Source: an uncultured Lachnospiraceae bacterium
GTDB taxonomy: Bacteria; Bacillota; Clostridia; Lachnospirales; Lachnospiraceae
Direction of reading: 5' to 3'
Assembly (NCBI GenBank): GCA_946558695.1
Contig: CAMNTQ010000001.1
Span: 62,001 to 126,000 of the forward strand
DNA: 64,000 bases
Below the pieces are notes generated by a model. That model did no database searches. It saw only the letters and a program-made list of their open reading frames with translations, and was not told where the DNA came from. Of this stretch, positions 811 through 26,478 are shown piece by piece (the stretch's first letter is position 1; every line of letters begins with the position of its first letter). The position numbers and the translations under genes were made by a program.

Positions 811-1755
811 TTATTCACCTTTTGGTTCGGCATCCTTGATACTTACATAAAGAGAATCTTTTTTGTTATCAGAAATCCAAATATCATGGAACCTGCGGTA
901 ATCCATAGACCACGCATTTGCTTTCTGATAATTATCAGGTGTAAAGATTCTCATCTTGTCCTGTTTGGTTATGGCGATTGGAGTAATCCTCGGCATAATC
1001 ATGAAATTAATGTCCAAGGCAGTCGAGCCTTTGGCATATCCTCCTTCCTTCTGGCCTTCTGTTTTTCCATCGTAAATCGCAATCGCAGTATACATGCGAT
1101 TCGCCGGTGTCGAGATAATCGGCACTTCATCTACAGACGGGACATTTGTCTGGATTCCGCCTTTAGAGAAGGTAATGCTCCTGATCTTCTCCGCCAGTTC
1201 GAGTTCCAATTCCATGATAAATTCGTCAGTAGCATGTGCTACCAACGGACCATTATATCCAATCTCTCTGACGGCCTTGATTCCTTCTTTTAATTTTCTT
1301 AATGAAGAGGTTCCCGTCGCTCCCGGTGTATATCCGTAATTGACCATTCCGGCTTTTTTCGCCTCCATCGCCGTTGTTGCAATATTAGAGATTCTATATG
1401 CATCAATTTCAGGAAGCACGAAATTACGCTGAAATTCTGCCATCACAGAAGACGCTGTTACTACAAAATCAGTCTCGTCTACATCCATAGCATCAAGCTG
1501 GAACTTTCTGCCCCTGTCCTGTGTCATCTTTCTTGTCTCATACTCGAATGTTACGGCTCCCTGAACGTATCCTTCGTCTCTGTCATATTCTCCCATGCCC
1601 TGCACTGACATTTTAGGTATCTTTACTTCCGCGCCGCCGTTATATTTTACTTTTCCGGCATTTGCGTCCATCCATCCGGTTACAGACTCCCTTACTGCGA
1701 TCTGGTCTAACTGTTTCTGAAATATTGTTGCTGCTGCCAATGTGTTAATAGCCAT
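811..1755 (-). CDS. phage major capsid protein
   Basis: 314 aa; N-terminus MAINTLAAATIFQKQLDQIAVRESVTGWMDAN... typical of major capsid proteins; follows scaffold gene. Confidence 0.85.
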   Translation of the reverse strand: MAINTLAAATIFQKQLDQIAVRESVTGWMDANAGKVKYNGGAEVKIPKMSVQGMGEYDRDEGYVQGAVTFEYETRKMTQDRGRKFQLDAMDVDETDFVVTASSVMAEFQRNFVLPEIDAYRISNIATTAMEAKKAGMVNYGYTPGATGTSSLRKLKEGIKAVREIGYNGPLVAHATDEFIMELELELAEKIRSITFSKGGIQTNVPSVDEVPIISTPANRMYTAIAIYDGKTEGQKEGGYAKGSTALDINFMIMPRITPIAITKQDKMRIFTPDNYQKANAWSMDYRRFHDIWISDNKKDSLYVSIKDAEPKGE

Positions 1756-1775
1756 ATTCTATCCCTTCCTTTCTT

Positions 1776-2462
1776 TTAAAACGGAGCGCTCATTGCCTTC
1801 GCAATCTGCTCCTCCAAAGCTTTTTCTTCATTCCCTGAAGCTCTTTTGGGCGGCTCCCCGCCTTTTAAACGTTCCTCAACCGCTTTTTCAACCGCACTCT
1901 GGAAAGCCTTCTCAATCGCTGATATCGACTTATTGCATGAGTCCGCATCTGTGTAATTAAGAACCTCTGCCAATTCAAGCGGAATGTTCTTTTCTGTCAG
2001 AGTATTCTTTGCTTCCGCCATCAGTTCGCGCTTCGTAATCTCGGCTTCTTTAGCTACCAGTTCTTTTTCCTTCTTCTGTTGCAGATACTCTGTTCTTTCC
2101 GCTGCCGTCATCTTGGCCAGCTTTTCGGCCTCAGAAACTTTGTCATCTGTCATGACGCGCCATTTTTCCTGCGCATTGGTTACTGCTGTAGTAATCGCTT
2201 TCTGGACTCTGCGGTCAAATTCCGCCTGATGGCCCGCTGCCATAAGTTCATCAAAGGTAGGCTTTTTGTCTCCTTCGTCTCCCTTTCCGCCGTCATGTCC
2301 TTCGCTGCCATCTCCTGCCCCGTCACCGTCATCGCCGCTGCCGTCGCCTCCTTCTTCAGCAAAAAACTGAATGCTTAATGGCATCTTCAGACTAGCCCTC
2401 CTGAATAAATTTTTAACTGCTTTGTTTTTCATTGCTTCTCCTTTCTGCCCCGCTCCATTCAT
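1776..2462 (-). CDS. phage capsid scaffolding protein (DUF4355-like)
   Basis: Acidic/Gly-rich N-terminus, coiled-coil K/E-rich middle, immediately upstream of capsid gene. Confidence 0.75.
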   Translation of the reverse strand: MNGAGQKGEAMKNKAVKNLFRRASLKMPLSIQFFAEEGGDGSGDDGDGAGDGSEGHDGGKGDEGDKKPTFDELMAAGHQAEFDRRVQKAITTAVTNAQEKWRVMTDDKVSEAEKLAKMTAAERTEYLQQKKEKELVAKEAEITKRELMAEAKNTLTEKNIPLELAEVLNYTDADSCNKSISAIEKAFQSAVEKAVEERLKGGEPPKRASGNEEKALEEQIAKAMSAPF

Positions 2463-2630
2463 CTAAGCCTGAAGCATTGCATTTAAATTGATTACCGTTC
2501 TTTTGCGTCTGCGGCAAAAAGACATAAAAATAACACGCTTTCGCGTGCATCTTTGCATAATAAAACCATCAGCCGTAACTGATGGCAAATACTATGATCC
2601 CCGTATCTTGCTTTTAATTTCTTTTACTTT

Positions 2631-2801
2631 TTATCTATTGGGAATCACCCTTTCAATATCGTCTATCGTGATGTCAATCGTTTCCCAGTCTTCCGGGGAG
2701 TCACCAACGTCTGCAATGAATACTTTGTTATCGAATGCTTCAACTATCGATGCCTCACGTCCGTCCTTTAAAAGAACCGTATCATATTCTCTTACTGTCA
2801 T
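2631..2801 (-). CDS. small 56-aa protein, DUF4926-like; candidate immunity protein for the MuF C-terminal domain
   Basis: Not in ORF track. Minus-strand reading MTVREYDTVLLKDGREASIVEAFDNKVFIADVGDSPEDWETIDITIDDIERVIPNR*; ATG overlaps the TGA of the upstream gene (ATGA). Confidence 0.6.
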   Translation of the reverse strand: MTVREYDTVLLKDGREASIVEAFDNKVFIADVGDSPEDWETIDITIDDIERVIPNR

Positions 2802-4381
2802 TCGCCTGCCACCTCTTTTATATATGTGCTTGTCATCGCAACAGAACCATCATTTCTGTGAATCCATCCAACAATAACATTGGCCGGAGTATCCTTTTTC
2901 CCATAAATAATCATCTTCTGTTCGTAGCGGTCGCCATACCCGTTATTGTCTTTATATGCTGCCGGGTATTGGGCTGCTTTGATTTTAATTTCTTTTTGGA
3001 GCTCTTTCCAGCTATCCATATCATAGCCCAGCCTGCCTGTAAATGCCTTTCCCTTAGCCAGTCCTTTTTCGTTTTCTCCGCCAAAGAGATATTTCGTAAA
3101 TTTCTCCTTTGGTAATATAACATCCCCTGCATTTGGTAATTTTAATTCCGGATGTTCCATCAGCTTATGCCTTCTTTGATAATCCAGCTTTGTATATTTC
3201 CACTTCTCCGTTTCATTATACTTCATATCCTGAAAATCATCCAGCGTGTTCGGCAGATTATCTCCAAGAACTTTTTTATACTGCTCATATTGCCTGCGGT
3301 CAGCAGAAAGATTCTTTACTTTCTTTTCCTGAAGCTTTGCTTCCGGATTCCCTGCGACAAATTTTCTGTACCATTGTTCGTAGGTCATATTCGCCGGAAC
3401 CGTGATTATCTTACCGGTAGAAGGATCAAATGCAGATCTTTTAAGTTCTGCCAGCGCTTCCCCATTTATAATACTGATGGTTGTACTCCTGCACCAAGGG
3501 TGCATTGGATTACAATTCTTTCCCGGCTGCTGCTCCGACACTAAGAATATTTTCCCATCAAGTGAGCGGCATATTTCAGATGTTCGTAAATCCAGTGTTG
3601 CAAGAAAACGGTACTTTTCAATTCCTGCTGCCTTATATGACTCCATCGCCATCTGACCACACAGGTAATTGCTCTCAGTCCTTACCAACCTTCTAGCTTT
3701 ATTTGCGCCCACTGCAAATTGTAGTTCTATATCCCTTGCCACCTCACGGTTTGTCTTACCAGTAATCAGTCCCAGAAGCAGTTCCTGTTTAACTGTTTCT
3801 GCCAGAGTCTTTGTGTTATTCCATATTCTGGAAGAATAATTTTCACCAGACCATTTAGAATTGATAACACGATCCACAACGCTCTGTGATACATGCGAAA
3901 ACCCAAATCCAAGCCCTGTTTTTTTCTGCATCTCAAACATGGACTTGTAATACGCTTCACTGGCCAGATTTATGTAATGGCTCATGGATGACTGTTTCTC
4001 CTGATGATATACATTCTCCATCATACCATCAATCTGAAGGCGCATATATTCCAGCCTTCTTATCCTGCTTTCATAGGCTGGGCTTTCCAGCTCTTTCAAG
4101 AGTTCCTGCTTATGTTTATTATGTTTATCATTTTGCAGCGCATTCTTTAAATCCTGTATCGTGCTGTTATCCGGCAGATTTTTGAGCAGTTCCTTTGCCT
4201 GTTCTTCTGTAAGATGGTGCTTGGTTCTGTACCGCTCAAAAATATCATCTATAGAAAGGTCAAGATATAATGCTGCTTTATGATACAAAGCCGCTATCTC
4301 ATCTGCTGCCTTTTCAGCTGATTCCATATATTCAAACATCCTCTGCGCCTGACGCTTCTCCCAATATGAGTTACTGCTCAT
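2798..4381 (-). CDS. phage head morphogenesis protein (SPP1 gp7/MuF-like) with C-terminal DUF6883-like extension
   Basis: Core ...LVRTESNYLCGQMAMESYKAAGIEKYRFLATLDLRTSEICRSLDGKIF...CNPMHPWCRS is the MuF signature; C-terminal ~110 aa LPNAGDVILPKEKFTKYLFGGEN... is an added domain. Confidence 0.85.
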   Translation of the reverse strand: MSSNSYWEKRQAQRMFEYMESAEKAADEIAALYHKAALYLDLSIDDIFERYRTKHHLTEEQAKELLKNLPDNSTIQDLKNALQNDKHNKHKQELLKELESPAYESRIRRLEYMRLQIDGMMENVYHQEKQSSMSHYINLASEAYYKSMFEMQKKTGLGFGFSHVSQSVVDRVINSKWSGENYSSRIWNNTKTLAETVKQELLLGLITGKTNREVARDIELQFAVGANKARRLVRTESNYLCGQMAMESYKAAGIEKYRFLATLDLRTSEICRSLDGKIFLVSEQQPGKNCNPMHPWCRSTTISIINGEALAELKRSAFDPSTGKIITVPANMTYEQWYRKFVAGNPEAKLQEKKVKNLSADRRQYEQYKKVLGDNLPNTLDDFQDMKYNETEKWKYTKLDYQRRHKLMEHPELKLPNAGDVILPKEKFTKYLFGGENEKGLAKGKAFTGRLGYDMDSWKELQKEIKIKAAQYPAAYKDNNGYGDRYEQKMIIYGKKDTPANVIVGWIHRNDGSVAMTSTYIKEVAGE

Positions 4382-5792
4382 CCTCTTCCTCCTCGCTTAC
4401 AGGCTCTTCTGGAGGTTCATTGAGATTATTGTCAAATAACTTTTTCTGACGTTTGATATTTTCATCATTTTCTTCGTTTACGGCTTCAACTTCCCCATCA
4501 GGATCTTCTACAAAAGGAAGGAGCTGTAATAATGTCTTCATGCTGACAGTGCCTTTTAAATTCGAGACCAGCTGTCCAAGCTCCGTCAGATTCTTAGGAA
4601 GCGCCCTGCTGAATACTGGCATGATAAAATTCGGATTAAGCATTATCTGTTTCAGGTTCAGGAAATGGCAAAAGATTGCGATTCTTTTCCGCAATCCTTT
4701 TTTATAATACCTTTCTTTAATCTTTGTGATCATCTCAAGACCAAGCAGCTTATATTCCATAGCCACTCCGGAACTATTCCCAACAAAATGCTCATCTGTC
4801 AGATTTGGGACATGAGAAAATGTATAAATGTCCTCTTTTATGGCTTTTCTTAAGGTCTCTACACCAGTCTCATCCATCGTCCTGGTTAAATACTCTGCTT
4901 TTCCGTCTAACGGCATTTCCAGCAGTTTTAATTCCTGCAGTCTCTTCTTAGCCTCCGCTGTCTCTTCTGTATCGTCTCCAAGTATAGAGCCGTAGATAAC
5001 GAGAATGGCATCTATAAACTGCTCTTTATCGTTCACACGGTCCGACATCAGCGTATTGTATGCGTCAATCAGGCTGATCTGCTGCTCAAAATCCCCGATA
5101 TTATCTTTGTTGTTTTTGTATTCAATAATCGGGATCCGTCCCATGTAGTGTTCCTTGGGTGTTTCTGTAAGCGGAATCTCTTTATTCCCATCACCAGTCA
5201 ACTCAAACGTATAGATAAAATTCTCTGTAGCAACCGTCGCTATGTATCGGGTTTCATTATTTACATCATCCTTCTCCGGCCGGTAATACACACCGAACAA
5301 TTCCGTCTGTTCGATAGAATCGTCATATACGACAAAAGTAAACTCCGGCTCCAGATTCCGCACTGTAAGCTCTGCCTCTTCTTCTCTTGCGAATATATAT
5401 TCATAAGCAACACCGTAAATTGACATATCAAGAGAATTATCGCTGTCTATATCATCCAACTGCGCATTGTCAAAAGCTGTTATCAGTTTATCCATAACCG
5501 TTTTCATGCTATCCGTATCGTCTGTATAATTGTAGGTGATTGGATTCCCCATAAAATATCCGCTGGCAGTATCCGAAATGTCTTTTGCATGATTGCAGAC
5601 GGTTCTCTCATTTGGAGCATTCTCTTTTCTTTTTTTCTGCAATATATCATGAACTCCGTCATAATAACGCTTGTTCTTAAACATCTTCTTTGCAATTATA
5701 CTCTGATGTTTCATAATCAGCTTTAAGATCAATTGTTTATCCAAAGCAAGTTCATCATATCGCTTCCTTGGATACGTTAGTGTGTGTAACAT
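4371..5792 (-). CDS. phage portal protein (SPP1 gp6 family)
   Basis: 473 aa; position between terminase and MuF; ...NKDNIGDFEQQISLIDAYNTLMSDRVNDKEQFIDAILVI... typical portal motif. Confidence 0.9.
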   Translation of the reverse strand: MLHTLTYPRKRYDELALDKQLILKLIMKHQSIIAKKMFKNKRYYDGVHDILQKKRKENAPNERTVCNHAKDISDTASGYFMGNPITYNYTDDTDSMKTVMDKLITAFDNAQLDDIDSDNSLDMSIYGVAYEYIFAREEEAELTVRNLEPEFTFVVYDDSIEQTELFGVYYRPEKDDVNNETRYIATVATENFIYTFELTGDGNKEIPLTETPKEHYMGRIPIIEYKNNKDNIGDFEQQISLIDAYNTLMSDRVNDKEQFIDAILVIYGSILGDDTEETAEAKKRLQELKLLEMPLDGKAEYLTRTMDETGVETLRKAIKEDIYTFSHVPNLTDEHFVGNSSGVAMEYKLLGLEMITKIKERYYKKGLRKRIAIFCHFLNLKQIMLNPNFIMPVFSRALPKNLTELGQLVSNLKGTVSMKTLLQLLPFVEDPDGEVEAVNEENDENIKRQKKLFDNNLNEPPEEPVSEEEEDEQ

Positions 5793-12794: not shown

Positions 12795-14293
12795 ATCTCA
12801 GCTGCTGCTCCCTGTCATCTATCCTCATGTTCGGCATCCGTTCACCAACTTTCAGGTATCCGCAGTTTGCTTCCACCAGTTTTTTTGCCATGACCGGCAC
12901 CACGCTGTTCCCGATCCGAGCCACCTGCTTGCTGACTGGGTATTTATTCCCGTTGTAATCCCGGTCAATGATATAGTCTTCCGGGAATCCCTGACCTAAC
13001 TTCAATTCTTCGGGTTTTAACATCCTTAGGAAGATATCAAGCATTACATATTCATTTCCTAAAACTGAGACCAGCGCAAATCTGTCTTTTGTCACTATGG
13101 TATGTAATAGCCCTTTCAGGTTCTGCCCGGTGCCGCACCCGCAGTATTCCATGATGAACTGACTCACCCATGTACATTTCCGTTCGTCAATCCCGGCTTC
13201 CTCCAACGCTTCCCGGTCTGTTGCCAGAACAGATACCGTTCCAAAATGTCCCGGTGACGTCGTGATTGTATGTATCGGCTCTGCCAGACTCTGTCCAGTT
13301 CCGCTTTTATAGTACTTCGTCATATAAGACATTACCAATCCGTAACGGTTGCTGGTATCTATCGTTTGAATCGGTTCTGTAACCTGCTGCCCCCCTGACT
13401 CCATTCCTTGTTGTTTCAGAATGGTACTGAATCATCAGAGGCGTCACCATTCCAAATCCATGCTTCTGTGTGATCGTCGGTATGGGTTCATGAACGTTCT
13501 GTCCGCGGAAATTACCGCCTCCATGATTTACCTGCACAATAAACGGTTCTGAACAGTTGAATACAAATTTCTCCAATCCCCTTGCTATCCGGTTCATGGT
13601 ATTCTCAGCTAACGGTTTCTTTCTGCCAAATATTGACTTTCCAAAATCTTTTAGATCAAGATGCCTGCTAATCGGCTCCCATGGCGGCAGACTGCCCGCG
13701 CCGCCTTTGCTGTGCGTTTTCTCCGGCCAGATGATTTCCTTTCCGTCTCTCCGGAATACTGCATACCAGCGCTTGCGCGTCGTCGGCGCTCCGTAATCCG
13801 CTGCCACAAGTTCCCTGCTGTCAAATGCGTATCCAAGAGACTTCATGGCTGTAATGAATTTCTTATAATCTTCTCCTCTGCGCTCTGGTATTGGATGCCC
13901 GTCTGGATCCAGCGGTCCCCACTGCTGTATCTCTTCCACATTCTCCATGATGATCACATCGGGAAGGATAGACTTGGCATGTTTATATACCGCCCACGGC
14001 AGTATACGCAATCCGTGCTTTCTGGGCTTCCCTCCTTTTGCTTTGCTGTGGCTTGTACAGTCCGGGCTCGCCCACATCAGAGATACATGACGGCCTTTTA
14101 CGTGTTTCTGCAGGTCAACTTTAAAGATGTCTTCTGTCAGATGCAAAGTATCAGGATGATTCGTCTTATGCATCAGAATAGCGTCCGGATCATGATTGAC
14201 CGCTATGTCCACCTGCCGTCCTAATGCCATTTCTATTCCTACTGACGCTCCGCCTCCTCCGGCGAAGCAGTCTATGATTAATCCGTTTCTCAT
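12787..14293 (-). pseudogene. DNA (cytosine-5) methyltransferase, apparently frameshifted into two ORFs (13307..14293 and 12787..13404)
   Basis: N-part MRNGLIIDCFAGGGGASVGIEMALGR, ASPDCTSHSKAKGG (PC-type loop), IIMENVEE; C-part continues the repeated QPxxTI...HGFGMV segments and GFPEDYII in the +1 frame after a G6 tract. Confidence 0.8.
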
Positions 14294-15414
14294 GGCATCA
14301 CCTCTGGAAAATCTTTAAAACTCATTTGTCCGTCTACATTCTTCTTTCTTTCTCGCTCAGCCATAAGCCTGTTAGCCTTATACTCGTTATATTTTGCGCG
14401 GTATTCATAGCTTTTCCCAAATATGTTCCATGCGGCTTTTACAAGATTTGGTTCGTATGGACGTATCATTTCCAGATCCTCTGCCGCCTTATATGATATC
14501 GGACAGCCACAGCAGCCTGTCCTTGTAAGGCCGTATACCTCATATGCGTCAGCATATCTGATTCCATAGTATTCTTTATACCATGCCTTGTCTGCATCTG
14601 ATACATAGTACAGCGGACGTAAGCGGTACTGCCCTTCGCTCGTTTCCGTAAAGCAAAGCGCTGTGTTATCCTTGCGCGGTACAGACCTCATACCTCCCTC
14701 GTCTCTGCGTTCTCCAGTAATTATCATGTCAAACTCTTTTTGTACATCGTGTGCAACCTGCTTTTTGCAGTAATCGCAGCATTTCGCACTGATCTGAAAA
14801 TCCGGCGGTTTCTCTCCGATAAAATCACGCATGTACTTAGAACTGTTAATCACAAGCTGAATTTTTGGTCTTGGCTCCCCTTTGGAATTACAGCAGCACA
14901 AGAAATTAATCACACTTTCACATTTTGGGTATCTCTCCTTTAACTCTTTCCTCTTTGCCGCTTTATCCTCCGCCTTTTCGTACTCCTGTGCAATATCCAG
15001 TGGAATCCTTTTCTTTTGCCATTCCTCTAATCCCGCAGACATGATTTTTGAAACAAACGGTATCCCGTATTTTCTGGACGCTGTCACAATGTTTACTTTC
15101 GGCCTATACTCCTTAATCTCAGTGCCGTACTTCTCTGCTGTCGATTTTACGTGTTCTTTTATAGCTTTCATTTCCAGCCCCGTATTAAAAAACGCATATT
15201 TAACAGGCGGCAGGCCAAATATCATCCTGACTCTTTCAATGAGATTGATTAAGATATCACTGTCAGATCCGCCGGAATACGAACAAATCGCCTTTGGATG
15301 CTCACGCAGACGCTTGGCAATAATACTTTCAATTGCCTGAAATTTTGCCGGTGCAGGAAAATCCGCATAATCCGGCCTTTCTGTATAAACCTTGCTTTTA
15401 TAAGTTTCTCTCAT
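14290..15414 (-). CDS. phosphoadenosine phosphosulfate reductase family protein (phage type)
   Basis: SYSGGSDSDILINLIERV PP-loop-like, multiple Cys motifs (CCDYCKKQ, TGCCGCP). Confidence 0.8.
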   Translation of the reverse strand: MRETYKSKVYTERPDYADFPAPAKFQAIESIIAKRLREHPKAICSYSGGSDSDILINLIERVRMIFGLPPVKYAFFNTGLEMKAIKEHVKSTAEKYGTEIKEYRPKVNIVTASRKYGIPFVSKIMSAGLEEWQKKRIPLDIAQEYEKAEDKAAKRKELKERYPKCESVINFLCCCNSKGEPRPKIQLVINSSKYMRDFIGEKPPDFQISAKCCDYCKKQVAHDVQKEFDMIITGERRDEGGMRSVPRKDNTALCFTETSEGQYRLRPLYYVSDADKAWYKEYYGIRYADAYEVYGLTRTGCCGCPISYKAAEDLEMIRPYEPNLVKAAWNIFGKSYEYRAKYNEYKANRLMAERERKKNVDGQMSFKDFPEVMP

Positions 15415-15489
15415 TTTTCAAAAGAAGCCCGTGTACACGTCACCCCGGCCGGAGGCTGGCTCCTTCCTCAAATTTATTTGTATCAATTC

Positions 15490-16287
15490 TCAAATATCTA
15501 GTGACATTTGTCCTTCTGGTTCAAAATTCATCCAAAGTACTTCCCGCTTTTTGCTGCATACCTGAGAATAACAGTAAGTTTCTTCTCTGTGCCATCCCTG
15601 CAGGCGGTCATTGTACAGATCGTTATCATATCCGCTTATAATGGCAGGCCCTTTGTGTGCTAAAAGTACATCCAGCAAATCATTTTGGCCTTTATCATCA
15701 AGCTCACATCTATACTGTTTCCCGTGTCTGGTACTCAGAACGTAGGGTGGATCATTATATACCAGCACCTTCGGATGATTAAATCTTTGTATGACATCTG
15801 CTGCTGGTCGGCACTCAATTTGTACGCCCCGTAATCGTTCCGCTGCCTTCGTTATCTTTTCCGGAAGATTTCTCCAATCCTGCGAAGCATACGCACGCTC
15901 CCGGCCTTGTATATCGTTCTTCCACCCCACCTTTTCTCCATTTGTCCTGAATCCATGCCCCATATTCAGCTTTATGCAGAAATTAGCAGCTTTACCAAAA
16001 CTATCTTTAGGCGTTTTTGTGAAAGCATTTTCATATACTCGTCTCGCATATGGCGTATAATATATCTCATGCGCCAGCCTTTCCGGATCTCTTTTAATCC
16101 ATTCAAACAGATTCACAACGTTATCATCCAAATCATTTACTGTCTCAATGTTGCTTCGTGCTTTATTAAATAACACAGCCCCACTTCCAAAAAAAGGTTC
16201 CAGATAACTGTGATGATCAGGAAAGTAACTGATTATCCAACGAGCTATACTCCACTTGCTTCCTGGGTATTTTATTATCGCTTTCAT
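15490..16287 (-). CDS. DNA adenine methylase (D12 class)
   Basis: IIKYPGSKWSIARWI...YLEPFFGSGAVLFNK; NDPPYV motif. Confidence 0.9.
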   Translation of the reverse strand: MKAIIKYPGSKWSIARWIISYFPDHHSYLEPFFGSGAVLFNKARSNIETVNDLDDNVVNLFEWIKRDPERLAHEIYYTPYARRVYENAFTKTPKDSFGKAANFCIKLNMGHGFRTNGEKVGWKNDIQGRERAYASQDWRNLPEKITKAAERLRGVQIECRPAADVIQRFNHPKVLVYNDPPYVLSTRHGKQYRCELDDKGQNDLLDVLLAHKGPAIISGYDNDLYNDRLQGWHREETYCYSQVCSKKREVLWMNFEPEGQMSLDI

Positions 16288-20828: not shown

Positions 20829-20957
20829 TTAGGCGGTTTTATCTTCCTCAACACGTTCTATTGTATAAGGGATTTTTGCTCGCTCCTGCTCTTCCAAAAG
20901 TGAGATAAGAACAGCGTGGATCTTTGGTATATCTAATCCCCTGAAATCCGCATCCAT
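20829..20957 (-). CDS. small hypothetical protein (42 aa)
   Basis: MDADFRGLDIPKIHAVLISLLEEQERAKIPYTIERVEEDKTA*. Confidence 0.4.
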   Translation of the reverse strand: MDADFRGLDIPKIHAVLISLLEEQERAKIPYTIERVEEDKTA

Positions 20958-21017
20958 ATCTTTCACCACTCTCCTTTTACTCCTTTAAATGTATGAACCA
21001 CTGTTTGTACTTGTTGC

Positions 21018-21152
21018 TTACTTTTTCACAGATTGCCGCGCTTTACATCCATGTCTATGCTTCCTTGCGTAAGCGGTCATTCTCTGCTTACATATCTCTT
21101 TGTTACTCTTTGATAACTCAATGTTATTGCTAAACTGAATTATATTGCTCAA
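21018..21152 (-). CDS. small hypothetical protein (44 aa, TTG start)
   Basis: (M)SNIIQFSNNIELSKSNKEICKQRMTAYARKHRHGCKARQSVKK*; preceded by the GGATAGGGAG boundary motif. Confidence 0.4.
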   Translation of the reverse strand: MSNIIQFSNNIELSKSNKEICKQRMTAYARKHRHGCKARQSVKK

Positions 21153-21208
21153 TCTATGTCGTCTCCCTATCCTGCTGCCCGATGGCATTTCTTTATACTC
21201 TTTTTATC

Positions 21209-21237
21209 TTGTTAATTTGTTTCAGCTCTCCTATAAT
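21209..21237 (+). promoter_or_regulatory. array promoter copy A
   Basis: TTGTTA-17-TATAAT. Confidence 0.8.
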
Positions 21238-21241
21238 TTAA

Positions 21242-21268
21242 GTACGGGACACTGCCATGTCCGAGTAC
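21242..21268 (+). promoter_or_regulatory. 5'UTR hairpin copy A
   Basis: GTAC g GGACA-CTGCCA-TGTCC ga GTAC. Confidence 0.75.
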
Positions 21269-21289
21269 GTAAGAAAAGGAGGAATTTTT

Positions 21290-21487
21290 ATGGTAAAGAT
21301 AGTTCGCGGCTACTGCCCTACACAAGATACAGATTACTCCGTAGCCATTACCTATGTTGATGCCTCAACGCTTCAAGAATCCTGCCATATTAAAGGAACT
21401 TTTAGATGCAAATATAATCTTTACGGCGACAAATGCGATTCTCCTAATGAATGTCCTATATATGCATCAGCTCCTCAGTCGCTCTAG
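21290..21487 (+). CDS. array plus gene 1, Cys-containing small protein (65 aa)
   Basis: MVKIVRGYCPTQDTDYSVAITYVDASTLQESCHIKGTFRCKYNLYGDKCDSPNECPIYASAPQSL; GGAGG SD. Confidence 0.7.
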   Translation: MVKIVRGYCPTQDTDYSVAITYVDASTLQESCHIKGTFRCKYNLYGDKCDSPNECPIYASAPQSL

Positions 21488-21763
21488 GTTTGTCAATTGT
21501 TTTTCCGTAACTAAGCCGGAGTCGATTAGACTTTGTTTTGCTATATAAAACTCACTGTACGGCTCCGGCAACTCAAGAATCGCATCGGACTCAAATAACA
21601 TATCTGTAGACGCTATTGATAATTGTATAATTGGAGCCCCCGATGCTTTATGGGATATAGAATATCCAGTAACCTTTTTAACCTCTTTCCCATCTATAGT
21701 TACTTTTGCATGAATGCCATCTGTCCTAATTGTTAACTTTGATTTATTCATCTTTCTTCCCAT
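21467..21763 (-). CDS. array minus gene 1 (98 aa), hypothetical
   Basis: GGAGG SD at 21767ff; 3' end overlaps plus gene 1 tail-to-tail. Confidence 0.6.
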   Translation of the reverse strand: MGRKMNKSKLTIRTDGIHAKVTIDGKEVKKVTGYSISHKASGAPIIQLSIASTDMLFESDAILELPEPYSEFYIAKQSLIDSGLVTEKQLTNLERLRS

Positions 21764-21840
21764 TCACCTCCTATCCTGCTGCCGCTCTCCACTCCTTTTG
21801 CATTTTCCGCTACTAATCCAGCATATTCATCTCATCCCTA

Positions 21841-21869
21841 TTGTTAATTTCTTCCAGACCCTATATAAT
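21841..21869 (+). promoter_or_regulatory. array promoter copy B
   Basis: TTGTTA-17-TATAAT. Confidence 0.8.
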
Positions 21870-21873
21870 CTAA

Positions 21874-21900
21874 GTAAAGGCTCCCGCCAGAGCCGAATAC
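21874..21900 (+). promoter_or_regulatory. 5'UTR hairpin copy B
   Basis: GTA aa GGCTC-CCGCCA-GAGCC gaa TAC. Confidence 0.75.
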
Positions 21901-21919
21901 AAAAGAAAGGAAAAAAACA

Positions 21920-22105
21920 ATGGAATATACACAAATCGAAATCGCTTTTAATGAAATAATAGAAACCTACAAAAATGAAGCCTCTCAATACTCACAATAC
22001 TGTCCTGAAGAGCTGTTATATGCTTTTGAGCATTTGTATAATGCACAAATTCACGCACTGGAATCTCTAAAACATATTTTTACTTCTGACAAATTTTATA
22101 GCTAG
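21920..22105 (+). CDS. array plus gene 2 (61 aa), hypothetical
   Basis: MEYTQIEIAFNEIIETYKNEASQYSQYCPEELLYAFEHLYNAQIHALESLKHIFTSDKFYS; SD AAAGGA. Confidence 0.65.
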   Translation: MEYTQIEIAFNEIIETYKNEASQYSQYCPEELLYAFEHLYNAQIHALESLKHIFTSDKFYS

Positions 22106-22263
22106 CTTTTTGTGGTGGGTTCTTCGGAATCCGCCCAGTCAAAATACTTTTTAAGTATGTTTTCTACTATTTCTAAATCTTCTTTGTTTTTATTCAACTT
22201 TTTTTCTGACAAAGCGATAGTTGATTTTAAATACTCTCTTACCCCCAACATAAATTCTTTCAT
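22102..22263 (-). CDS. array minus gene 2 (53 aa), hypothetical
   Basis: MKEFMLGVREYLKSTIALSEKKLNKNKEDLEIVENILKKYFDWADSEEPTTKS; GGGAGG SD; stop overlaps plus gene 2 stop by 4 bp. Confidence 0.6.
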   Translation of the reverse strand: MKEFMLGVREYLKSTIALSEKKLNKNKEDLEIVENILKKYFDWADSEEPTTKS

Positions 22264-22319
22264 CTCATACCACCTCCCTATCCTGCCGCCCGACGGCATT
22301 TCTTTATACTCTTTTTATC

Positions 22320-22348
22320 TTGTTAATTTGTTTCAGCTCTCCTATAAT
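22320..22348 (+). promoter_or_regulatory. array promoter copy C
   Basis: TTGTTA-17-TATAAT; ~58 bp around it almost identical to copy A. Confidence 0.8.
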
Positions 22349-22352
22349 TTAG

Positions 22353-22379
22353 ATACAGGCATCTGCCATGCCCAAGTAT
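22353..22379 (+). promoter_or_regulatory. 5'UTR hairpin copy C
   Basis: ATAC a GGCAT-CTGCC-ATGCC caa GTAT. Confidence 0.75.
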
Positions 22380-22400
22380 TTAAAGAAAGGAGATTGCACT

Positions 22401-22577
22401 ATGACAAACGAACAACTTGCACATGATTTAGCTGTTGCACACGTAGCCGGTAAACAACTATCACCTGATATTCTGGTTGATGAGTATCAAAAGAACTATG
22501 CAGTAATTCTTGAGTACTTACGCTCCCAACCAAAGCCTAAAGTTAAAATTCATAGTAAAAATGATATCGGATTTTAA
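22401..22577 (+). CDS. array plus gene 3 (58 aa), hypothetical
   Basis: MTNEQLAHDLAVAHVAGKQLSPDILVDEYQKNYAVILEYLRSQPKPKVKIHSKNDIGF; SD AAAGGAG. Confidence 0.65.
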   Translation: MTNEQLAHDLAVAHVAGKQLSPDILVDEYQKNYAVILEYLRSQPKPKVKIHSKNDIGF

Positions 22578-22963
22578 ACGGAATGAAGCTGCATAATTAT
22601 ATCTTTTGCATCATCAAGGATATCAAAGGCATATTTCACTGGAAGTCGATCTGAATTTTGCGATATAGTATCCAATACTTTCAGTGAAATCCTTGCTAAT
22701 TCGTAATTATTCGTAAAATTAAGGTTTCCTTCCTCCATTGCTTCATTTCCAGCCTTCTCATATTTCCCTATATTGTCAACTCTTATCTTTTCAAGGCACA
22801 TTTCTTCAATCGTATAACGACAAATATCAAGCGCTAATTCAGGTGTTACGTCGATATTACTTTTAACAAGAACTTCTTTTATGCCATTCTGAACATTGGT
22901 AAATTTATCGCCCAATGACTGTTCTAGCCTTTGTTTTTCTTTCACATGTTTTTCTGCATCCAT
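22574..22963 (-). CDS. array minus gene 3 (129 aa), hypothetical
   Basis: MDAEKHVKEKQRLEQSLGDKFTNVQNGIKEVL...; stop overlaps plus gene 3 stop by 4 bp. Confidence 0.6.
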   Translation of the reverse strand: MDAEKHVKEKQRLEQSLGDKFTNVQNGIKEVLVKSNIDVTPELALDICRYTIEEMCLEKIRVDNIGKYEKAGNEAMEEGNLNFTNNYELARISLKVLDTISQNSDRLPVKYAFDILDDAKDIIMQLHSV

Positions 22964-22979
22964 TTTCGTACCTCACCTC

Positions 22980-23240
22980 CTATCCTGCTGCCGCTCTTCG
23001 TTCAATACTTTGAACCTTTTCTTTAAAAAAATAATCAGGTATATCTTGGCTACGCAATTCCAAACACAAAATTGCTCTATTCATTTCTGTCTGTGTCCAC
23101 GCTCTTTTTCCTCCGATTTTTAGCGATAATGAACGTTCTGACATGCCTAATGCCTTTGCAAAGTTGGATTGTGTACCATATTTTTCCCGGATTCTACCAC
23201 TTAGTTTGCTATAATCAAATGACATATATTTCACCTCCAT
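22980..23240 (-). CDS. Cro-like HTH regulator (DUF739-like)
   Basis: MSFDYSKLSGRIREKYGTQSNFAKALGMSERSLSLKIGGKRAWTQTEMNRAILCLELRSQDIPDYFF. Confidence 0.8.
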   Translation of the reverse strand: MEVKYMSFDYSKLSGRIREKYGTQSNFAKALGMSERSLSLKIGGKRAWTQTEMNRAILCLELRSQDIPDYFFKEKVQSIERRAAAG

Positions 23241-23253
23241 TCATCTTTATTCG

Positions 23254-23360
23254 GTTCAATATCTTGAACTTATTTAATCTTAACATCTATATATAAACAA
23301 GTCAATACTTAAATTCAAAATTTTGAACTATTTGTTTTTTAGTCTTGAACTTTTGTTCAA
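23254..23360. promoter_or_regulatory. cro/cI intergenic operators
   Basis: Palindromes GTTCAATATCTTGAAC (23254-23269), TTCAAAATTTTGAAC (23314-23328), TTGAACTTTTGTTCAA (23345-23360). Confidence 0.75.
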
Positions 23361-23395
23361 TATATGATACATTGATTACAGGAGGTGAATTCCTT

Positions 23396-23773
23396 TTGAA
23401 AAAATATAACACTTCTGATCGATTGCACCAAATAATGAATGAGCGCAATTTAAGACAAATTGATATTCTCAACCTAACAATTCCATATTGCGAAAAATAC
23501 GGTGTTAAGATGAACAAATCAGATATCAGCCAATACGTATCAGGAAAGGTTGAGCCTAATCAAGACAAACTTGCAATTTTGGGTATGGCTTTAAATTTAA
23601 ACGAAGCATGGTTGATGGGATATGATACTCCACCAAGGCGAAAAACTCTATCGTCTACAGAAGCAAAGAATGATTTTGAATTAGTAGAAAAGTTTTCTAT
23701 GTTGTCTGACTCAGATAAAGAATTAGTATTAAATCTTATCAATTCATTATTAGAAAAGGCAGGTCTGATTTAG
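23396..23773 (+). CDS. phage CI-like repressor, XRE family HTH
   Basis: TTG start after GGAGGTGAATTCCTT; KKYNTSDRLHQIMNERNLRQIDILNLTIPYCEKYGVKMNKSDISQYVSGKVEPNQDKLAILGMALNLNEAWLMGYD. Confidence 0.85.
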   Translation: MKKYNTSDRLHQIMNERNLRQIDILNLTIPYCEKYGVKMNKSDISQYVSGKVEPNQDKLAILGMALNLNEAWLMGYDTPPRRKTLSSTEAKNDFELVEKFSMLSDSDKELVLNLINSLLEKAGLI

Positions 23774-25131: not shown

Positions 25132-26478
25132 TGAGATTGGGTGATTTATTCAAAGTTAATCAGTTTAAATCAGAAATTGAGCAATTAAAAGCTAACAACC
25201 TACAACTTTATAATGAAAACTGTGATATGAAAAATTTACTGACTCCAGAAATGCAGGATACTCAAAAACCTTCAAGCTTTGATACATAATCTGGAAAACA
25301 AAAAAAGTTCCTTACAAAATGATATTTCTAACATCGAAAAAGATATGGCAACACGCATATCCAACATTAACGATTTAGATCAAGAAATCCAAAATCGAAA
25401 ATCACAGATTATCTCTCTCGATGATGAAATTTTAGTTCAGGAATTTGGATTGTATCGACCCCAATTTCAGTTTGCTAATGCCCTTGGGTATAAAGAGAAA
25501 CTTGCTCAAATACGTGCAGAACAGAAACAACTAATCAAAAATAAACTCGCAGTAACAGGCAATATTAATTGGCAAGTAAATGGAAGCTCCACAAAAGGCA
25601 AAAAAATGGTTTCCGACACGCAAAAACTATTATTACGTGCTTTCAATACAGAATGCGATGAACTTATTTCAAAAATTAAATATACCAATTTCGATTCTTC
25701 ACTGAGCAGAATTTACAAATCTTCAGAAACAATTTCGAAACTTGGAACAATAATGAGCATTTCTATTACCCCATCTTATCTTAATTTAAAAGTAAAAGAA
25801 TTACAGCTTGCTTTTGAGTATCAGCAAAAGAAACAAGAGGAGAAGGAAATGCAACGTGCAGCTCGTGCCGAAATGCGAGAAATGGCTAAATTACAAAAAG
25901 AGATTGAAATGCAGCGCAAAAAAATTGAGAAGGAACAGAATCACTATCAAGCGGCCTATGAAAAACTGTTAAAACAATTAGAGCAGAATCCTGAAAACTC
26001 TGATTTACTCCTCAAAAAAAATGAACTAGAAAAACAACTTGATGATATCGGTAAAGCTATAAAAGATATTGATTATCGTGAAGCAAACCAGCGCGCGGGT
26101 TATGTATATGTCATTTCCAATATAGGTGCATTCGGAGAAAACATTTACAAAATTGGTATGACACGAAGGCTGGAGCCGCAAGATCGTGTCGATGAACTTG
26201 GTGATGCGTCTGTACCATTTAATTTTGATGTACATGCTATGATTTTCTCTGATGATGCACCCTCTTTAGAAGCCGCTTTACATAGAGCTTTTGATGATCG
26301 CAAACTTAATATGGTCAATACCCGTAGAGAATTTTTCAATGTAACACTTGATGAAATCAAAAAAGTAGTAAAAGAAAACTTCGATAAGACCGTTGAGTTT
26401 ATTGACGTGCCTGATGCAGAGCAATATCGTGTTAGCCAGAAAATTAAACAAGAAAATATCCATCCTAGCCGACAATAA
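25132..26478 (+). pseudogene. DUF4041 + T5orf172 (GIY-YIG-like) protein, frameshifted near 25260
   Basis: N-part MRLGDLFKVNQFKSEIEQLKANN...LLTPEMQD in one frame; LKNLQALIHNLENKKSSLQNDI... continues in the +1 frame; C-terminus GYVYVISNIGAFGENIYKIGMTRRLEPQDRVDELGDASVPF. Confidence 0.75.

Follow-up and report, generated by a model that had tools for sequence, protein, structure and literature searches.

A predicted promoter-hairpin leader heads convergent small-gene modules at the cro junction of clostridial prophages

Small genes standing tail to tail beside the cro gene of a prophage, each pair separated from the next by a repeated linker, raise the question of what such a row is for and how it is put together. 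The row considered here lies in a stretch of 64,000 nucleotides from an uncultured Lachnospiraceae bacterium (contig CAMNTQ010000001.1, positions 62,001 to 126,000), hereafter the window. The window is part of a prophage, with terminase, portal and Mu-F-like genes on its left and a rolling-circle-type Rep, cro (DUF739), a CI-like gene and a serine recombinase on its right, and the array is located between cro and the remaining early minus-strand operon. A preliminary description had reported three tail-to-tail pairs of small genes here, divided by duplicated linkers that carry the Shine-Dalgarno sequence of a minus gene on one side and the promoter of a plus gene on the other. An ORF check of the window reproduced all six genes at the coordinates given below, with pair overlaps of 21 nt (21467-21487), 4 nt (22102-22105) and 4 nt (22574-22577). 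The linkers proved to be real repeats: an alignment of linkers 1 and 3 gave 88% identity across 119 nt, and a core of 68 nt in linker 2 matches linker 1 at 71%. On the minus-gene side, the ribosome-binding stretch TCACCTCCTATCCTGCTGCCGCTCT occurs in identical copies at 21764-21788 and 22973-22997, and the neighbouring gene that had been called cro-like indeed encodes a Cro-type DUF739 protein (8e-29). The features of the array are as follows.

21176-21187, plus strand: short TGCC...GGCA stem, then a T-rich run, immediately ahead of the -35 of linker 1
21209-21237, plus strand: promoter of cassette 1, TTGTTA-17 nt-TATAAT (match of covariance model R1/R2)
21243-21267, plus strand: 5' hairpin 1, UAC-G-GGACA[CUGCCA]UGUCC-GA-GUA (82.3 bits)
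21290-21487, plus strand: plus gene 1, 65 aa, Cys-rich; family of eight members, led by the same hairpin elsewhere
21467-21763, minus strand: minus partner 1, 98 aa; relatives in loci L085 and L205 oppose other plus genes
21764-21788, minus strand: conserved ribosome-binding stretch of minus gene 1, identical to 22973-22997
21841-21869, plus strand: promoter of cassette 2
21875-21899, plus strand: 5' hairpin 2, UAA-A-GGCUC[CCGCCA]GAGCC-GA-AUA (76.9 bits)
21920-22105, plus strand: plus gene 2, 61 aa; homologue behind the same hairpin in L065, from another genus
22102-22263, minus strand: minus partner 2, 53 aa; its homologue partners the plus-2 homologue in L065 (co-inherited pair)
22284-22298, plus strand: terminator-like TGCC...GGCA stem with a T-rich tail, before the -35 of linker 3
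22320-22348, plus strand: promoter of cassette 3
22354-22378, plus strand: 5' hairpin 3, UAC-A-GGCAU[CUGCC]AUGCC-CAA-GUA (77.3 bits)
22401-22577, plus strand: plus gene 3, 58 aa, two-helix model (pLDDT 85); cargo superfamily of 44 members
22574-22963, minus strand: minus partner 3, 129 aa; relative in L102 opposes a zinc-ribbon-like plus gene
22973-22997, minus strand: second exact copy of the minus-gene ribosome-binding linker
22980-23240, minus strand: Cro-type regulator (DUF739, 8e-29), the fixed right-hand neighbour of the array
23396-23773, plus strand: CI-like repressor (phrog_2967, 1.7e-15), divergent from cro

The plus genes are each predicted to have a private sigma-A-type promoter: every one in the window is preceded by TTGTTA-17-TATAAT, and this promoter is conserved across the 284 leader copies that we collected with two covariance models. 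In each window linker a hairpin begins 5 nt past the promoter -10. It consists of UAC, an unpaired A (G in copy 1), a stem of 4-5 bp, the loop CUGCCA or CCGCCA and the second arm, after which come two unpaired nucleotides (mostly GA), GUA and the Shine-Dalgarno sequence; in summary form, a 4-5 bp stem carries a CYGCCA hexaloop and an internal loop of A/GA. The third window copy is less exact, with a 5-nt loop and three unpaired nucleotides. The predicted start site places the hairpin at the extreme 5' end of the mRNA. Among 258 distinct parsed copies, the distance from the -10 to the hairpin was 5 nt in 238 and that from the hairpin to the start codon was 18-24 nt in 227, statistics that are partly circular because 119 of the loci (L095-L213) were chosen by hairpin pattern, as are all hairpin statistics that include them. 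Rfam returned no family at the gathering threshold across the window and nothing relevant even to E=10 for 20900-23400. Our literature search found no paper describing the promoter-hairpin element, and the words 'promoter', 'moron' and 'hairpin' are absent from the Ruminococcus gnavus phage paper (PMC10072058). The leader is an as yet undescribed structured RNA, its hexaloop being conserved; the hairpin, the breadth of the system and the matching of convergent partners described below were absent from the preliminary description. In phage phiRM10 (L024, 5020-5090, plus strand), the plus gene of phiRg507T2_2 stands under a diverged hairpin, CCGA[AUAGCAG]UCGG; therefore, the leader can lose the consensus loop yet keep a stem. 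The stems and T-runs of linkers 1 and 3 could insulate the cassettes from plus transcripts arriving from the left, and the stem at 22284-22298 would be a predicted stop for those coming from cassette 2. Terminator-like sites were found within 400 nt of plus genes in 41 of 252 cases versus 86 of 783 control windows, with no clear enrichment.

An inverted repeat just past a promoter might equally be a DNA operator for a phage or host repressor, its RNA pairing being incidental. This would suit the sequence conservation of the UAC/GUA and GG/CC flanks, the overlap of the repeat with the predicted start site and the presence of XRE regulators at 55 of 61 loci. The arms themselves, however, change in compensation. 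In 12 copies aligned with MAFFT, an alignment not fitted to any structure, two-sided changes at the 11 pairs numbered 22 versus 8.8±2.4 in shuffles, and the covariation score was 0.413 versus at most 0.081 with slid partners. In 70 copies aligned to the covariance model, an alignment biased toward that model, 132 two-sided changes were counted versus 52.8±6.0 in shuffles and at most 40 with slid partners. The 72 copies found without the hairpin pattern carried 28 different stems with one hexaloop type; 56 of them were parsed with a 6-nt loop, which matched the loop consensus in 53. One shared protein would not be expected to recognise half-sites this varied, and the repressors are unrelated from phage to phage. 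Moreover, the loop is asymmetric and, in the mRNA sense, invariably CYGCCA, an orientation that the model favours. The strong covariation of the arms suggests that the hairpin would act at the RNA level, and we regard the operator reading as improbable.

The leader recurs in one bacterial family and is rare outside it. With the first covariance model it was detected in 42 of 397 Lachnospiraceae genomes (40 of 334 genera); it was also present in 5 of 391 genomes of a class sample, two of them outside the family, and in 5 of 300 genomes of a phylum sample, four of them outside the class; an ORF lies directly behind each of these outlier leaders, which are genuine. A search of IMG/VR with the -35/-10 sequence as pattern gave no match, and the hairpin was therefore used as bait, which yielded matches on 39 viral and 89 genome contigs, almost all from Lachnospiraceae or other Clostridia. 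Among cultured phages, BLAST with one linker retrieved the same leader from R. gnavus phages and one Acetoanaerobium phage, in each of which it heads a plus gene that opposes the early operon and lies a few genes away from cro. At least two copies were present in 67 of 163 loci, at least three in 37 and seven in one; in none of the 163 did copies occupy both strands. The Lachnospiraceae contig of L157 has seven leaders within about 3.6 kb (1549-5187, minus strand), two of which head Cys-rich genes related to plus gene 1 of the window. The genome under study holds the linker motif four times, three in the window array and one in a second prophage (L055, contig C57, 5376-5450, minus strand), where a single cassette with the same hairpin lies beside Cro/CI-type genes; across prophages, by contrast, the motif recurs hundreds of times over, far beyond chance.

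What follows the leader is equally regular. An ORF with a Shine-Dalgarno sequence stood behind 261 of 279 testable copies versus 87 of 1317 (7%) random same-strand sites, the median length of the plus protein being 73 aa, and a convergent minus ORF was present at the end of 248 of these 261 ORFs, with a 4-nt overlap of interlocking stop codons in 44 pairs. Differences between homologues are concentrated at codon position 3 (693 of 1280 for plus, 427 of 901 for minus genes), and plus and minus genes therefore both evolve as coding sequence and are presumably translated. Strand bias calculated from all ORFs was uninformative owing to spurious ORFs, and with Shine-Dalgarno-supported ORFs the left flank was minus-strand in 102 of 110 loci; on the right, one to three minus genes and then a plus gene followed in 88 of 100 loci, Cro-type and then CI-type in the sequences read. 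Thus, the insertion point is fixed despite unrelated repressors. The cro/cI-type XRE genes formed a single-linkage HTH cluster in 55 of 61 loci; apart from them, no gene near the arrays was common to more than 22 of the 61. The preliminary reading of the row as a cassette array with private promoters in an early-operon junction is supported by the one promoter per plus gene and with the position between cro and the early operon.

The cargo, by contrast with the linker, varies. The 234 non-redundant pairs fell into 114 plus clusters and 137 minus clusters, and homologous plus genes were found within one array in only 2 of 131 comparisons. Linker similarity was 0.73-0.81 within arrays versus 0.62-0.66 between arrays. 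In phages phiRg519T2 and phiRgPS_6 (L006, L007), 96 nt of linker are identical between unrelated flanks (38% on the left, 29% on the right), and therefore the linker is a joint of exchange. The modular exchange between related prophages that had been anticipated is thus borne out, the arrangement being other than a single fixed one. The named plus families are DUF2513, zinc ribbons, KTSC, YozE-SAM-like, DUF2321, DUF2441, Abi_alpha and a TIR-type effector. Judged by sequence matches, some plus cargo appears defence-like, namely an Abi_alpha protein (6e-42; PADLOC PDC-S47) and a TIR-type effector (4e-12); of the 116 plus representatives, no more than two or three matched known defence families. 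The hairpin-led genes for the TIR-type effector and the Abi_alpha protein lie at L101:7212-7919 and L134:4176-4964, respectively, both on the plus strand. For plus gene 3 of the window, neither the two-helix model nor a weak match to FliS (E 0.12) was informative as to function. A Tad2-like minus gene (probably L118:7798-8034) was set aside as evidence, being a single case of a gene class common in early operons.

Whether the two genes of a pair are partners was addressed from inheritance and from protein type. Homologous plus genes faced homologous minus genes in 88 cases versus 1.6 expected, mostly among close relatives; where plus proteins were less than 35% identical, the partners were detectably homologous in only 11 of 81. 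Together with the relatives of window minus genes 1 and 3 that stand opposite unrelated plus genes, these data indicated that partners are exchanged and are not strictly cognate. In a homology-independent test on 96 pairs, with each plus cluster and each minus cluster represented once, a membrane-type plus protein met a membrane-type minus partner 10 times versus 2.0 expected (p<5e-5), membrane calls being made from hydropathy and the convergent partner chosen algorithmically. In the 81 pairs with a readable divergent left neighbour, that neighbour was of membrane type beside a membrane plus gene once versus 1.7 expected, whereas the convergent partner of the same pairs was so 8 times versus 1.5. 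After removal of the overlapping tail from the minus protein the figure was still 7 versus 1.6, and zinc-ribbon plus genes showed the same matching tendency (2 versus 0.15). Compartment matching with the convergent partner, and not with the divergent neighbour, points to plus and minus proteins that act on each other. One recurrent plus type, seen in L202, L213, L140, L098, L069 and L174, has a soluble N-terminal part and a C-terminal membrane helix, and is opposed there by a minus gene of 36-98 aa with a membrane helix.

The modules with their promoters, the covariation of the hairpin, the constant position, the turnover of cargo and the matching of partners can all be read from the DNA, and we think it somewhat more likely than not that they constitute a prophage accessory-gene platform, in which a hairpin-led plus gene would serve lysogeny and a minus partner in the early operon would modulate or silence it on induction. 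The early minus operon behind cro carries a row of convergent two-gene modules. We infer that in lysogeny the early promoter would be silent and the plus promoters free, so that plus genes would be transcribed, their products being small lysogeny functions of which at least some may be anti-phage. The hairpin at the 5' end would protect the short mRNA from 5' decay and/or bind a host-supplied factor; as no phage gene other than XRE accompanies it, it would be either a lone 5' stabiliser or an element read by a host factor through the hexaloop. On induction, transcription of the early operon would cross the array in the direction opposite to the plus genes and yield the minus partners, which would modulate or inhibit the opposite plus products as Ith does with Tha, and the linkers would serve as joints for gain, loss and swapping of modules. 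In the 'noncontiguous operon' of Staphylococcus aureus prophages, a lysogeny defence gene and an overlapping antisense gene form a pair in which the antisense product inhibits the defence protein on induction (PMC11087260); since Tha/Ith works by this logic, we propose lysogeny-side effectors and lytic-side modulators in series. A bolder reading is that of a new kind of mobile-gene platform, in which a host-read RNA tag, made of the promoter and the CYGCCA hexaloop hairpin, would label exchangeable antisense pairs of defence and antidote beside cro in clostridial prophages, so that any gene set behind the tag would become a lysogeny gene with a lytic antagonist on the opposite strand; it is offered tentatively and may well not hold.

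Two other explanations of the pairs were weighed against this platform. The cassettes might be ordinary morons that share a strong promoter and a 5' stabiliser, the minus genes being unrelated early genes in merely physical linkage; private promoters, changing cargo, recombination at linkers and the exchange of partners by minus genes 1 and 3 would all be expected of them. Such linkage does not account for unrelated convergent partners being compartment-matched (10 versus 2.0) when divergent neighbours are not (1 versus 1.7), and a conserved hexaloop goes beyond the needs of a plain stabiliser, so that we consider this reading rather unlikely. Alternatively, the plus gene might encode a toxin, with the minus gene or an antisense RNA as antitoxin (type I or II), making the modules prophage addiction systems. 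Small, convergent, overlapping genes fit this idea, partner matching suits any cognate pair, and one report (PMC6563280) places type I systems of comparable layout in clostridial prophages. Yet only 19 of 234 plus proteins are membrane-like, and the class as a whole therefore does not consist of type I toxins; no toxin-antitoxin family occurred among the Pfam, PADLOC and NCBIfam matches; and the minus partner is not expected in lysogeny, where a freely toxic plus gene would stand unpaired. We give the addiction reading little credence.

Several known systems come close to the platform. Like Tha/Ith, it has two small genes that overlap in antisense inside a phage operon, one of them with its own promoter, and a private-promoter antisense gene is nested in the operon and overlaps its neighbour. 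The arrangement is, however, a mirror image: ith is the antisense gene in the cI operon, whereas here the antisense gene lies in the early operon, and many unrelated pairs follow one another, the promoter and hairpin being common to all. No HEPN family was found among the Pfam/PADLOC matches of the 116 plus representatives. Lambdoid morons or lysogenic-conversion genes are likewise extra genes with their own promoter that vary between close relatives, and own promoters and exchange between relatives were found here as well; the differences are one RNA-structured leader and one insertion point for more than 100 cargo clusters, and a convergent partner. The SAS/ESAS elements of Cluster K mycobacteriophages (PMC3203893) resemble the leader as a conserved element with inverted repeats and a ribosome-binding site before many unrelated small phage genes. 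Their 13-bp GGGATAGGAGCCC at the start site is not matched, the consensus after the hairpin being AAAGAAAGGAG here. RNA pairing of those repeats had little support in the authors' own analysis (PMC3203893), whereas covariation supports pairing here, in an element that includes the promoter and heads antisense cassettes. In acr-aca operons, too, phage accessory genes have an inverted repeat right after the promoter, but the present cassettes are without a shared travelling HTH aca gene. Integron gene cassettes are also serial interchangeable small units with a repeated structured element, in contrast to which the units here have their own promoters and, XRE regulators excepted, no gene is common to most loci.

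The covariance model provides a single searchable tag that retrieves hundreds of unannotated small prophage genes in gut Firmicutes, and for every one of them the convergent partner is a candidate antagonist. Two questions become directly testable through this tag, namely the role that the prophages of gut Lachnospiraceae play in their lysogens and the means by which prophages escape their own defences during induction, with the TIR-type gene of L101 and the Abi_alpha gene of L134 as the best entry points for defence function. The hairpin adds a structured RNA, and its conserved hexaloop may be read by a host factor, because no common phage gene accompanies it.

Two further loci of the window prophage are recorded. 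At 13307-16287 (minus strand), a PAPS-reductase-like gene is flanked by Phage C5 and D12 adenine DNA methylase genes. The other, at 25279-26478 (plus strand), encodes a DUF4041/T5orf172 protein; it lies on the lysogeny side, after the CI-like gene and ahead of the serine recombinase, and is probably another accessory gene.
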